A stretch of 64,000 nt of DNA, from positions 1 through 64,000 of the forward strand of contig ONJF01000015.1 of assembly GCA_900318085.1 (NCBI GenBank), given 5' to 3'. Numbering within the stretch: the stretch's first letter is position 1; each line of letters starts with the position of its first letter. Position numbers and translations under genes: made by a program. The notes below the pieces were generated by a model. The model worked only from the letters and a program-made list of their open reading frames with translations, was not told where the DNA came from and did no database searches. This DNA comes from an uncultured Bacteroidales bacterium (GTDB lineage: Bacteria > Bacteroidota > Bacteroidia > Bacteroidales > F082). Positions 38,862-43,646 of the stretch are shown piece after piece.

Positions 38862-39896
38862 ATGGAGAAAAAAGACTTACTGAAAGACGTTGTCGAACAT
38901 ATCGACATTAAGAAGTACGACTCAACCGAACTCATCAACGCAATGCGCAAGATGTCGTTCACCTCGCGTGACACCGCCCGCGCCGCCGACATCCTTTGCC
39001 AGATGATCGCGGAGAAGGACTGCACCAACATCCTCACCATCGCCGGTTCCACTTCGGCCGCCGGCTGCATGCAGGTGTATGTGGAGATGGTTCGCAACAA
39101 GATGGTTGACGCCGTGGTCAGCACGGGTGCCAGCATCATCGACATGGACCTCTTCGAAGCCCTCGGCTACAAGCACTACATCGGCACGAAGGAGAACGTC
39201 ATCCCCGACACCAAGCTGCGTGAACTCTACATCGACCGTATTTACGATACCTTCATCGACGAGGAAGAACTGCAGGCCTGCGACCAAGCCACCTGCGACG
39301 TGGCTGACACCCTGGAGTGCCGTCCCTACAGCAGCCGCGAGTTCCTCTATGAGGTCGGCAAATGGCTGGCCAACGGTCACGGCGTGAAGAAAGAGAGCCT
39401 CATCCAGACCTGCTACGAGTGCGGCGTGCCGATCTTCTGCCCCGCCTTCAGCGACAGCTCGGCTGGCTTCGGCATCGGCAAGCACCAGTGGCTCCGCAAG
39501 AAAGCCGGCAAGCCTTACGTGAGCATCGACTCGGTGGCCGACTTCCTCGAACTCACCGAAATCAAGATGAACAGCCCTCAATCGGGCCTCTTTATGGTCG
39601 GTGGTGGCACACCCAAGAACTTCGCACAGGACACCGTCGTCTGCGCCGAGATCCTGGGTCACGAAGTGCCCATGCACAAATATGCCATCCAAATCACCGT
39701 GGCCGACGTGCGCGACGGCGCCTGCTCGTCCAGCACGCTGCTCGAGGCTGGCTCGTGGGGCAAGGTGAGCGAAGAGCTCCAACAGATGGTCTATGCCGAA
39801 GGCACCACCGTCATCCCCGCCATCGTCAGCTACGCCTACCACAATGCACCATGGCGCGAGCGCGAGTATAAGAACTGGCAGAAACTTTATAAATAA
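38862..39896 (+). CDS. Deoxyhypusine-synthase-like NAD-dependent enzyme
   Basis: A 344-residue protein of the DHS/homospermidine-synthase family. SGLFMVGGGTPKNF (NAD-binding), VVSTGASIIDMD and AGSWGKVSE are recognisable; Lys301 in SWGK aligns with the enzyme-intermediate lysine (Lys329) of human DHS. Bacteria lack eIF5A hypusine, so bacterial members probably transfer the aminobutyl group of spermidine or agmatine to another amine, giving homospermidine or a related polyamine. An arginase-fold gene and an arginine-deiminase-fold gene follow, consistent with arginine/polyamine metabolism. Confidence 0.88.
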   Translation: MEKKDLLKDVVEHIDIKKYDSTELINAMRKMSFTSRDTARAADILCQMIAEKDCTNILTIAGSTSAAGCMQVYVEMVRNKMVDAVVSTGASIIDMDLFEALGYKHYIGTKENVIPDTKLRELYIDRIYDTFIDEEELQACDQATCDVADTLECRPYSSREFLYEVGKWLANGHGVKKESLIQTCYECGVPIFCPAFSDSSAGFGIGKHQWLRKKAGKPYVSIDSVADFLELTEIKMNSPQSGLFMVGGGTPKNFAQDTVVCAEILGHEVPMHKYAIQITVADVRDGACSSSTLLEAGSWGKVSEELQQMVYAEGTTVIPAIVSYAYHNAPWREREYKNWQKLYK

Positions 39897-40061
39897 TGCT
39901 GAATTAGGAATTATGAATGCTGAATGGGAGCAAAGCCCAAAGTGCATTGCACCATTCAGCATTCTTCATTCAGCATTCCACATTCAGCATTCCACATTCA
40001 GCATTCCACATTCAGCATTCCACATTCAGCATTCTTCATTCAGCATTCCACATTCAGCATT
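39896..40061. repeat. TGAATGC-type inverted element with 14-bp tandem repeats
   Basis: It begins at the last base of the upstream TAA stop with TGCTGAAT, ATGAATGC and TGAATGG words. The right arm (39953-40061) is 7.8 tandem copies of CATTCAGCATTCCA or the CTT variant. It ends five bases before the next ATG, so it may separate or couple the two genes. Confidence 0.9.
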
Positions 40062-40066
40062 AACAA

Positions 40067-41242
40067 ATGGACATCAGCATCTTCCTTGAACCCGTTTCGG
40101 AAAAGTGTTTCAGCAAGAGCCATCGTCCAGGCAAGAAGACCTTGGGCGAAACTATCCTCATCTACCGCAATGAGGATGAATTCCCCGACCTTGAAGGCGT
40201 GGATTTAGCCATTATTGGGGTCAAGGAAGAGCGTGGTGCTGTCGACAACAAAGGCTGTGCCGACGGCATTGACCACATCCGCAAAGCCCTTTACCCCCTC
40301 TTTGACCATTGGTCGCAACTCCACATCGTCGACTTGGGCGATGTGAAGATCGGAAAAGAGATTTCGGATACATATTTTGCCTTTAATCAAGTTCTTACAG
40401 AACTGATGAAAAACAAAATCGTACCCATCGTCATCGGTGCGGGACAAGACCTCACCTATACGATGTATCAGGTGTACGAGCCCACAGGTAAGCTCATCAA
40501 CATCGCTGCCGTCGACCCCATGTTCGATATCGGCAACGACAAGGAAGCGCTCAACTCGCATTCCTATTTAAGCCATATCATCCTACATCAGCCCAACTTC
40601 CTGTTCAACTTCACCAACATTGGCTACCAGTCGTATTATGTTGACACAGAGAATATCGAACTGATGAAACAGCTGCTCTTCGACGCTTATCGTTTGGGCA
40701 GCATCAAGCAAAACATCGAACTGACCGAACCGCTCATCCGCAACGCCAACCTCTTGAGTTTCGATATCGCAGCCATCCGTGCCGCCGACGCTCCAGGCGT
40801 GAAGAATGCCTCGCCCAACGGTTTCAACGGAGAAGAGGCCTGCCGCATGACGCGCTATGCAGGGTTGAGCTACAAACTGTCTTCCATCGGCTTCTTCGAA
40901 TACAACCCCCACTACGACATCAACGCGCGTACGGCCAACCTCATCGCCGAGATGATTTGGTACTTCATCGAAGGATTCTCCAGCCGTCAAGATGACATCC
41001 CCACCATGGACAGTACCGATTTCCGTCGCTACAATGTACAAATCGGTGAAGGACAGAATGATGTGGTCTTCCTCTGCCACAAGATCACGGGCAAGTGGTG
41101 GATGGACATGTCGTTCCTGCAAAACGACGACCAGCGTTACGAAAGGCATCATTTCATCCCCTGCTCGAAGGAAGACTACGACCAAGCCATGCGCAATGAG
41201 CTGCCCGACAAATGGTGGCAATTCTATCAAAAGTTGATGTGA
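40067..41242 (+). CDS. Ureohydrolase (arginase/formimidoylglutamase) fold protein with altered metal site
   Basis: A 391-residue protein of the arginase superfamily by overall pattern: DLAIIGVKEERG, VPIVIGAGQDLTY, INIAAVDPMFDIG and LLSFDIAAIRAADAPG occupy the four metal-binding motifs. The usual GGxHS/T, DAHxD and SFDxD ligands are only partly kept: Gln127 replaces the first His, Pro151-Met152 interrupts the DAHxD motif, and Asp233 is kept. Similar divergent members in Bacteroidota are annotated as formimidoylglutamase-like. Catalysis of arginine or agmatine hydrolysis is therefore doubtful. It lies between polyamine- and arginine-related genes. Confidence 0.75.
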   Translation: MDISIFLEPVSEKCFSKSHRPGKKTLGETILIYRNEDEFPDLEGVDLAIIGVKEERGAVDNKGCADGIDHIRKALYPLFDHWSQLHIVDLGDVKIGKEISDTYFAFNQVLTELMKNKIVPIVIGAGQDLTYTMYQVYEPTGKLINIAAVDPMFDIGNDKEALNSHSYLSHIILHQPNFLFNFTNIGYQSYYVDTENIELMKQLLFDAYRLGSIKQNIELTEPLIRNANLLSFDIAAIRAADAPGVKNASPNGFNGEEACRMTRYAGLSYKLSSIGFFEYNPHYDINARTANLIAEMIWYFIEGFSSRQDDIPTMDSTDFRRYNVQIGEGQNDVVFLCHKITGKWWMDMSFLQNDDQRYERHHFIPCSKEDYDQAMRNELPDKWWQFYQKLM

Positions 41243-41357: not shown

Positions 41358-43646
41358 ATGAAAAAAGCATTATCTATCTTCACTTTATTACTCCTGATGG
41401 CCGCTACGATGCAGGCCCAGGAGAAGAAACCCGATTGGATGAGATGGCACTATCTCTCCGAAGCAGAGATGTACGACACCTCGCGTGGCATGAACTTCGT
41501 CGAGACCGACCCGCCGACGGGCGAGCCGCGTTTCGTGGCAGAGTTTGAACCCATGCAGGGCGTGATGATCCGTTATCCCTTGGGCATCCCGACGAGCCTT
41601 GTGGCACAGCTGTCGAACAACTGCATGGTGTATTGCATTGTCAGCACCTCGCAGCAGAACCAAGCCCAGAACAGTTTCCAAAGCGCAGGTGTCAACATGA
41701 GCAATGTGACCTTCGTCAACGCTCCGACCGACTCCTATTGGGTGCGTGACTACGGTCCGTGGTATATCTTTGAGGACCGCGAACCTGCCATCGTCGACAA
41801 CATCTACAACCGCCCGCGCCCCAACGACGACAACATCTCGGGTGTGTTCGCCAACTTCTGGCAGATCCCCATGTACGGCATGAACCTCCAGCACACTGGC
41901 GGCAACATGATGGAAGACGGTCGCGGCCACGGCGTGAGCGATGACCTCGTGCTGAATGAAAACAACCACAATGAAACTAATGTCCGCAACAAGATGCGCG
42001 ACTACCTCGGCATCGACCCGTATCATATCACCATCGACCCGCAAGGCGACTACATCGCCCACGTGGACTGCTGGGGCAAGTACCTCGCTCCCGACAAGAT
42101 ATTGATTGCGCAACTGCCGCAAAGCAACCCCCGCTACCAGTATTATGAACAGGTGGCCGAATATTTCGAGACCACCAACTGCTGCTGGGGCTATCCTTAC
42201 CATGTGTATCGCGTGCAGGAACCCGGTGGCTACACACTCGCTCCTTATACCAACAGCCTCATCCTCAACAAGACCGTGTATGTGCCTATGGGTAGCAACA
42301 GTACCTACAACAACGATGCCATCGCTGTTTATCAAGAGGCTATGCCTGGCTACACCATTGTTGGCGTGAATGGCGGCTCTGCCGGTTGGGAAAACACCGA
42401 TGCCCTGCATTGCCGCACCCGTGGCGTAATGGACTTCCACATGCTCTTTGTGGACCATCGTAATGTGCTTCACGGAGAGCAAGAATGGCAAGACTCTATC
42501 CCCGTAGTCTCCAAGTTCATCGCATACAGCGGTGCGAACCTGAAGCAAGACTCACTCCTTGTGTATTATAGCATCGATGGCGGTGCCTACCAAACAGCCC
42601 ACATGACCGCAACGGGCAATCCTGACGAGTATGTCGGCTACATCAAAGGCTATCAAGGCGAATCGGAGATTGATTACTATGTGTTTGGTGCCGACGAATC
42701 GGGACACCGCTACACGCAGCCCGTCTTCGCCGACCTCGACCCGCACCATTTCACTATGGCGGCACATGAACCTCCTACCCCACAGGGCGAATTGGTGATT
42801 ACACCGGACACGCTGTGGTTTACCCAAATGGGACAGGAAAGACAATTTAATATCATCAACGAAACAAACGAAGCTGTCACTATCATCGATGTGGTGCCCG
42901 AAGCACCTAGTTTCAATCTTTGGGACAACACTTTCCCGTACACCTTGCAACCTGGGGAAACGCTTACGGTTACCATAAATTTCCAATCCGCTCCTGGTAA
43001 AGACACCTACATCCCATACGAGATTTTGGTTCGGACCACATTGGGCGACAGAATTGTGATGGGCATGGTGCTGAACACCTCACTTGACAGTGGTTTTGTG
43101 ATTGTGGGTGCGCCCGTTTTGGAATTCAACGACCCAGGCGACAGTCCCCAACAAGCGTGCATGCAAAATCGTTTCTTTGGTAGCCAAATTCCCGTCAAAG
43201 TGCTGTCTGTTACCGAAAACGGCACGGACTATTTGAGCTTTGAGCCTCATGGTACCTTGCCTTACACTGTGGAACCAGCAGATTATTTCTACCTTGACGT
43301 GTATGTCAATGCCATGGTAAAAGGCTATGAAGTCACCACCTTTACGGTTCAGACCGATCAAAATGACTGCACTTATAGTGTCGCTATCAACGAAGACCTT
43401 TTGAGCGTCACCGAACTCTCCGCCGAAGCCAAACTCTACCCCAACCCGACTACGGGCCAATTCACCGTGGAAGGCGCAAATGTGTCCAAGGTGGAAGTGT
43501 ATAACCTCGTTGGACAAAAGGTCTGCGAACAGCAAGGCAGCAAGACCGTCAACATCGACGCTGCCAATTGGCACAAGGGCATCTATCTCGTCAACATCAT
43601 TGAACAGAATGGTGCTGTGGTGACCAAGAAATTGGTGGTGAGATAA
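41358..43646 (+). CDS. Secreted peptidylarginine deiminase, PPAD type, with T9SS tail
   Basis: A 762-residue protein with a signal peptide (MKKALSIFTLLLLMAATMQA). The catalytic domain is agmatine-deiminase-like and carries the full guanidino-modifying set: Asp131 (VRDYGPW), His235 and Asp237 (AHVDCWGK), Asn299 (YTNS) and Cys352 (LHCRTRG). Arg152 and Arg154 (NRPRP) match the residues that hold the substrate C-terminal carboxylate in Porphyromonas gingivalis PPAD, with almost identical numbering. Ig-like domains follow (about 380-690), then a T9SS tail (YPNPTTGQFTVEG). It is longer than PPAD (556). The likely reaction is conversion of C-terminal peptidyl-arginine to citrulline plus ammonia outside the cell. 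Confidence 0.85.
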   Translation: MKKALSIFTLLLLMAATMQAQEKKPDWMRWHYLSEAEMYDTSRGMNFVETDPPTGEPRFVAEFEPMQGVMIRYPLGIPTSLVAQLSNNCMVYCIVSTSQQNQAQNSFQSAGVNMSNVTFVNAPTDSYWVRDYGPWYIFEDREPAIVDNIYNRPRPNDDNISGVFANFWQIPMYGMNLQHTGGNMMEDGRGHGVSDDLVLNENNHNETNVRNKMRDYLGIDPYHITIDPQGDYIAHVDCWGKYLAPDKILIAQLPQSNPRYQYYEQVAEYFETTNCCWGYPYHVYRVQEPGGYTLAPYTNSLILNKTVYVPMGSNSTYNNDAIAVYQEAMPGYTIVGVNGGSAGWENTDALHCRTRGVMDFHMLFVDHRNVLHGEQEWQDSIPVVSKFIAYSGANLKQDSLLVYYSIDGGAYQTAHMTATGNPDEYVGYIKGYQGESEIDYYVFGADESGHRYTQPVFADLDPHHFTMAAHEPPTPQGELVITPDTLWFTQMGQERQFNIINETNEAVTIIDVVPEAPSFNLWDNTFPYTLQPGETLTVTINFQSAPGKDTYIPYEILVRTTLGDRIVMGMVLNTSLDSGFVIVGAPVLEFNDPGDSPQQACMQNRFFGSQIPVKVLSVTENGTDYLSFEPHGTLPYTVEPADYFYLDVYVNAMVKGYEVTTFTVQTDQNDCTYSVAINEDLLSVTELSAEAKLYPNPTTGQFTVEGANVSKVEVYNLVGQKVCEQQGSKTVNIDAANWHKGIYLVNIIEQNGAVVTKKLVVR

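Follow-up and report, generated by a model that had tools for sequence, protein, structure and literature searches.

The window, by which we mean the whole analysed stretch of 64,000 nucleotides from an uncultured Bacteroidales bacterium, carries on its forward strand a deiminase gene that is preceded by two genes on the same strand. The features of this locus are the following:

38862..39896, + strand: 1,9-bis(guanidino)-5-aza-nonane synthase (deoxyhypusine synthase-like), upstream of the deiminase (NF002699, 551.6 bits, cut-off 500)
40067..41242, + strand: arginase/formimidoylglutamase family protein, upstream of the deiminase (PF00491, 77.2 bits, cut-off 22)
41358..43646, + strand: PPAD-type secreted deiminase gene, ORF of 762 aa (Pfam, TIGR and PDB profile matches)
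41358..41417, + strand: probable signal peptide, residues 1-20 (inspection of the sequence)
41496..42422, + strand: catalytic deiminase domain, residues 47-355, with W128, D131, R152, R154, Y232, H235, D237, C238, N299 and C352 (alignments)
42423..42758, + strand: first Ig-like domain, residues 356-467, counterpart of the PPAD IgSF domain (the PPAD alignment extends to residue 467)
42816..43412, + strand: putatively exchanged cassette X, residues ~487-685, probably two Ig-like domains; edges +/- ~10 codons
43434..43643, + strand: T9SS C-terminal sorting domain, residues 693-762 (PF18962 and TIGR04183 above cut-off)

The two upstream genes adjoin each other (38862-41242) and form a pair of the agmatine/polyamine type. 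An arginase-family neighbour was detected in only six of 16 own-genus loci (L010-L013, L016 and L018 among L010-L025, all with flanks of about 1.5 kb), and for this reason an operon role for it was set aside. When the neighbours of 80 named loci were clustered, the 25 clusters shared most widely (at least three loci each) contained a gene of the tested window region only in the case of the PAD cluster itself. A tandem second PAD gene is located downstream in L205, L208, L210, L211 and L020. In the first four of these loci the second copy is devoid of X and shares 65-69% identity with the window deiminase in the catalytic domain, but 85-92% in the Ig domain and 83-95% in the tail (one cut short), a pattern that looks like gene conversion.

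The initial annotation had described the gene product as a PPAD-type peptidylarginine deiminase with a T9SS tail, and both statements were borne out. When compared by HMMER with PDB chains, the window deiminase matched Porphyromonas gingivalis PPAD (4yt9) with 360 bits (E 2.1e-106), and residues 47-467 aligned with chain residues 2-419, spanning the catalytic domain and the Ig-like domain present directly behind it. The best non-PPAD chain was 1xkn (45 bits), titled putative peptidyl-arginine deiminase, which we take to be AguA-like; the best chain titled agmatine deiminase, 2ewo, reached 17.8 bits. The Pfam model PAD_porph scored 94.1 bits (cut-off 25). Since the match to the solved PPAD is strong, a five-bladed propeller fold is likely. 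The N-terminus, MKKALSIFTLLLLMAATMQAQE, resembles a signal peptide by inspection, and at the other end of the protein Por_Secre_tail (PF18962) and the T9SS tail model TIGR04183 gave 54.5 bits (cut-off 27) and 49.9 bits (cut-off 23), respectively. PPAD itself has a T9SS tail, as stated in a passage of PMC11285876, and its Ig-like fold is assigned to aa 361-461 in the relevant section of PMC4893104.

With 762 aa, the window deiminase is 206 residues longer than the PPADs of P. gulae and P. loveana (556 aa), so the earlier estimate of about 200 additional residues was correct; the extra Ig-like domains invoked to account for them are plausible but tentative, as the additional part gives only matches to ASH/HYDIN below threshold. 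Relatives with both ends intact (no contig or locus edge) range from 531 to 1240 aa, many of them near 660-690; therefore the long form of the window deiminase is not odd, and it is the Porphyromonas form that belongs among the short ones. Long PAD paralogues (L067, L068 and L190, in frames of 1016-1244 aa) were observed in three own-genus genomes and are 54-61% identical to the window deiminase. In the window genome (3.24 Mb, 93 contigs), 81 places match the window deiminase, mostly via its tail, and no second match to the deiminase part was found at E <= 0.001. The Pfam model finds one further PF04371-family gene there (L246, 590-1282 and 1212-2297, contig C65); it is split over two reading frames, being either broken or affected by a sequencing error.

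Regarding the active site, D131, H235, D237, N299 and C352 of the window deiminase correspond to D130, H236, D238, N297 and C351 of PPAD, both by HMMER and when 161 distinct sequences were aligned with MAFFT, L054_2 and four rows shorter than 250 aa having been left out. The residues proposed to hold the substrate carboxylate are equally in place: R152, R154 and Y232 align with PPAD R152, R154 and Y233, while the gatekeeper C239 and W127 of PPAD have equivalents in C238 and W128. Thus all seven residues named by the initial annotation (Asp131, Arg152, Arg154, His235, Asp237, Asn299 and Cys352) lie at the positions it gave and align with PPAD. We assigned the 161 rows to groups by search score: 141 PPAD-clade sequences from outside Porphyromonas (window included), four from Porphyromonas, seven of a second clade, three of a third clade (L194 doubtful) and six AguA. 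The catalytic D/H/D/N/C set was kept in 141/141 of the non-Porphyromonas PPAD-clade sequences, R152 in 140/141 (Leu in L107), R154 in 140/141 (Phe in L190), Y233 in 125/141 and C239 in 140/141. In addition, the catalytic domain is under purifying selection, with dN/dS of 0.01-0.14 over 13 pairs with the window deiminase. Published structures and mutants tie R152, R154 and Y233 to the C-terminal arginine according to PMC4487231 and PMC4893104, the latter agreeing on R152 and, less, on R154. Because the window deiminase has R152, R154 and Tyr232, specificity for C-terminal arginine is the best prediction for this enzyme.

The resemblance to the known PPADs (4yt9 and 5ak7 of P. gingivalis, together with those of P. 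gulae and P. loveana) comprises the catalytic five, the clamp R152/R154/Y233, the Cys239 and Trp127 equivalents, the Ig-like domain after the catalytic one and the T9SS tail. The differences are an identity of 43%, the greater length, which is due to the apparently exchangeable cassette before the tail, and the lineage of the host. A second PAD_porph clade of the order (L056-L059 and L061-L063, 29-36% identical to the window deiminase) shares the catalytic five and both arginines in 7/7 distinct rows, but in all seven has Gly for Tyr233 and Met for Cys239, and forms a separate clade (93/96, four rows in the careful tree described below). In a third clade, L060 and L064 present the catalytic five and are without both carboxylate arginines. 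P. gulae DSM 15663 also has a second PPAD-like open frame (L071, 5860-7551); it retains the catalytic five and R152, carries Pro in place of R154 and Ser in place of Y233, and may therefore have another specificity.

A rival to consider is an exported deiminase of agmatine or free arginine with no more than a resemblance to PPAD, given that the guanidino-modifying core (D, H, D, N, C) is common to AguA, that a weak match to the AguA model exists and that polyamine-type genes lie just upstream. That match, however, amounts to 45.7 of the 381.8 bits of the TIGR03380 equivalog cut-off, and to 43 of 483 bits for NF010070. Both carboxylate arginines, present in the window deiminase, are absent in 6/6 AguA rows, whose open frames measure 342-369 aa in five cases and 512 in one; the T9SS tail also speaks against this alternative. 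The phylogeny was addressed by a quick maximum-likelihood tree of 73 rows, including the very long row L194, and by a careful tree of 43 rows in which L194 was left out; both recover the same main groups. In the careful tree, a branch with 100/100 support separates the six AguA rows from the remaining 37, and the window deiminase falls within a PPAD clade of 31 rows (98/98), in which its own family forms a group of seven rows (98/97) and Porphyromonas one of four (100/100). Grouping with the agmatine deiminases, which the initial annotation had named as the outcome that would contradict it, was therefore not recovered. An AU test with the window family and AguA on one side of a branch was marginally rejected (p-AU 0.047); this test is close to a choice of the attachment point of the AguA branch, and its marginal result limits the conclusion and counts among the points in favour of an agmatine deiminase. 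On the basis of the sub-cut-off scores, the clamp arginines and the tree, membership in AguA was ruled out, and we consider the agmatine or free-arginine enzyme a very improbable reading compared with a deiminase of the PPAD family.

The initial annotation suggested a host outside Porphyromonas, and the topA identities lead to the same conclusion: topA of the window genome is 57% identical to those of P. gulae and P. loveana, 62-66% to those of five other genomes behind named loci, 63-72% to those of other genera of its family and, where own-genus rows are full-length, 71-94% (in the own-genus search, G008 was without a match and G049 gave a distant match only). Across the family, identity to the window in topA rises with identity in PAD (Spearman 0.83 for 41 of 43 genomes, a few of which rest on partial matches; G508 and G518 were excluded because their topA match was fragmentary or absent), which is what vertical descent would produce. 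PPAD has been described mainly from Porphyromonas, which could suggest that the gene was recently acquired from that genus. Nevertheless, a clade made of the window family and Porphyromonas alone was rejected (p-AU 0.0035), the topA and PAD divergences agree, and 93/99 own-genus genomes are carriers at E <= 0.001 (45/46 of the good ones). A recent transfer from Porphyromonas was thus ruled out, its probability being practically negligible next to that of vertical inheritance.

The rarity outside Porphyromonas that the initial annotation implied did not hold, as the gene is near-universal in the genus and common in the order. In other genera of the family, 46/59 genomes and 13/14 genera match at E <= 0.001, and 43 genomes exceed 300 bits (hand count). 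Across the order, 255/392 sampled genomes match at E <= 0.001, a figure that includes AguA-type and second-clade genes, and 107/392, with 40 family labels, reach E <= 1e-80 (hand count). For the phylum the figure is 239/392 genomes at E <= 0.001, mostly weak among the matches listed; outside the order but within the phylum, the matches above 300 bits come from four genomes of a single genus. Among named genomes, at least 562 of 586 stretches encode a relative. By hand count, the best 80 named loci comprise three Porphyromonas, 12 Cloacimonadota/Cloacimonetes, three Neomarinimicrobiota/Marinimicrobia, one Delongbacteria, one Chlorobiota, one Alphaproteobacteria and 59 Bacteroidota-type labels; relatives occur in records labelled Lentimicrobium. 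In a viral collection, four stretches matched a pattern and none encoded a relative. It should be noted that single MAG labels can be wrong: the careful tree groups the row labelled 'Alphaproteobacteria' with Draconibacterium, and L093, labelled 'Cloacimonadota', with a row labelled 'Neomarinimicrobiota'. Rows L118, L123 and L148, from Cloacimonadota, form a clade of their own at 100/100 in the same tree, which argues that these labels are real. The Porphyromonas PPADs are one twig of the PPAD clade and, since relatives are common in the same order, the enzyme does not look like the speciality of a gum germ.

These results can be compared with previous descriptions. P. gingivalis is presented as the sole prokaryote able to citrullinate proteins in a statement of PMC4487231, and as the sole known human-associated prokaryote with the enzyme in one of PMC6367333. 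Within Porphyromonas, PMC10394638 assigns a PAD lineage to P. gingivalis, P. gulae and P. loveana; a 2021 paper calls pPAD 'more widespread than previously thought', and centipede PADs are placed inside a large tree of bacterial PADs in the corresponding part of PMC7864903. We noticed no literature on the detailed distribution, on gingipain partners outside Porphyromonas or on cassette exchange, in a search of partly accessible sources whose scope excluded most subscription journals and in which gingipain homologues and cassettes were not queried by name; this is no proof of novelty. Peptidyl-citrulline is also made by the vertebrate-type PAD1-4. These enzymes are genetically unrelated to PPAD, according to a passage of PMC4487231.

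Another aspect to mention is the presence of possible partner peptidases. The window genome has 17 places with Peptidase_C25 above cut-off. Two of them are PorU-like genes, with 138 and 158 bits to 6za2. L154 and L156 score higher against Kgp (424 and 390 bits) than against Rgp (109 and 117) and are Kgp-like; L155 and L157 show the reverse (270 and 261 bits for Rgp, 81 and 82 for Kgp) and are Rgp-like. In alignments, L155 and L157 keep the equivalents of Asp163, His211 and Cys244; Asp163 is the S1 anchor in the account given in part of PMC9559808. By local comparison, the other 11 places include two Rgp-like (L235 and L236), one Kgp-like, five weak and three without a hit, and the Asp163 motif was found by pattern in L236 and not in L235. 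Lys-gingipain-like (L154, L156) and Arg-gingipain-like (L155, L157) peptidases thus exist outside Porphyromonas. Because RgpB-like, Kgp-like and PorU-like C25 peptidases are encoded, C-terminal arginines could be made locally. Judged from these matches, the window genome has the pair that in P. gingivalis makes a C-terminal arginine and then citrullinates it, and the Rgp-like peptidases may cooperate with the window deiminase.

The region between the first Ig-like domain and the tail, X, behaves differently from the rest of the protein. We aligned 60 own-genus proteins (window included; PAD score of at least 650 bits) and dropped seven (three duplicate copies and four tandem paralogues without X), which left 53, four of them with a short region instead of X. 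In these 53 genes, X is present as 24 versions at 70% identity; 16 genes, counting the window, share the version of the window, and eight share a second one:

Second X version: L012, L014, L017, L018, L195, L196, L200 and L216

Over 1378 pairs, the rank correlation with catalytic identity is 0.50 for the first Ig domain, 0.40 for the tail and 0.14 for X. When catalytic identity is at least 85% (826 pairs), X is below 50% identical in 640 pairs, at least 80% in 142 and between these values (50-80%) in 44. The first Ig domain is at least 60% identical in 827/827 close pairs; the tail is at least 70% identical in 569/827 and below 50% in 217/827, so that some lineages differ in the tail too. As examples, L200 and L205 have catalytic domains that are 100% identical (rounded), X 34% and tail 94%, and the window and L206 share 88% in the catalytic domain and 98% in X. 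The pattern, in which X is nearly uncorrelated with catalytic identity, is that of a cassette that would be exchanged between species of the genus.

It could be argued that X varies by fast selection at a single locus instead of by exchange, a process compatible with the 44 intermediate pairs and with the variability of the tail. Against it, DNA identity has sharp edges in the three different-version pairs shown, falling near codons 485-500 and recovering near 675-690, and near-identical catalytic domains with X only 34-36% identical do occur. Furthermore, X has a lower dS than the catalytic domain in 15/15 same-version genes compared with the window (0.11-0.49 vs 0.28-0.95) and, within the window's version, in 119/120 pairs, which are non-independent. 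Fast selection is hardly probable in view of these data, and exchange of the cassette is the reading we retain. Many of the assemblies are probably MAGs, and MAG chimeras could explain single cassettes but hardly 24 versions with shared edges. The search for silent copies of the second version elsewhere in the genus showed that matches of at least 84% are confined to nine frames (763-828 aa) adjacent to PAD matches; one 33-residue piece at 82% was located at a contig end, and the next matches (51-56%) were in four other frames of 756-1154 aa.

As regards its nature, X probably consists of two beta-sandwich (Ig-like) domains. The region has a conserved pattern, and identification by Pfam and PDB profiles gave sub-threshold or weak hits only, with DUF1573 and others below threshold in some relatives. 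X-like segments are present in other T9SS-tailed proteins of the window genome. A stalk, an adhesin, target selection and antigenic variety are candidates for its role.

Taken together, we consider it very likely that the gene encodes a PPAD-family peptidylarginine exodeiminase that is secreted and anchored at the cell surface and has been inherited vertically in a non-Porphyromonas lineage of the Bacteroidales type. Its identity of less than half to PPAD, the marginal AU result and the adjacent arginase-family and DHS-like genes, which could hint at an arginine/polyamine setting, were counted against this explanation. In the proposed mechanism, the Sec signal peptide would lead the protein to the periplasm and the T9SS tail to the cell surface, where Arg-gingipain-like peptidases of the same cell would cleave extracellular proteins behind arginine residues. 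R152, R154 and Y232 would then hold the C-terminal arginine thus exposed, and the catalytic five would hydrolyse its guanidinium to citrulline and ammonia, while cassette X, downstream, may act as a non-catalytic stalk or binding module exchanged by species. Compatible with this explanation is an active deiminase that would act on surface proteins of its own cell or on peptides from the environment (for nutrition or biofilm) and not on host proteins, a possibility that we regard as evenly balanced. It is favoured by the near-core condition of the gene in the genus and by carriers with the names LacPavin, fen_979, SulCav and BS750m, which seem to point to lakes, fen, cave and deep water (the habitats being deduced from the names) and suggest that a vertebrate host may not be needed. 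The study of P. gingivalis strain 381, in the part of PMC6367333 that deals with it, can be cited in support as well.

On a broader level, PPAD-type exodeimination coupled with Arg-gingipain-like proteolysis might be an old surface trait, older than host disease and widespread in Bacteroidales and related phyla. In the own genus, recombination between species would exchange the outer part of the enzyme as a cassette, and a single conserved catalytic head would thereby be displayed on many different surface modules; we give this proposal, taken as a whole, the same chance of being right as of being wrong. The cassette exchange would supply a series of natural proteins that differ in their outer domains and have nearly identical catalytic heads. 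If the members from uncultured Bacteroidales are active, there would be many more possible sources of bacterial citrullination, the physiological role of PPAD could be investigated in lineages free of periodontal disease, and the link with arthritis would need re-examination for other anaerobes.
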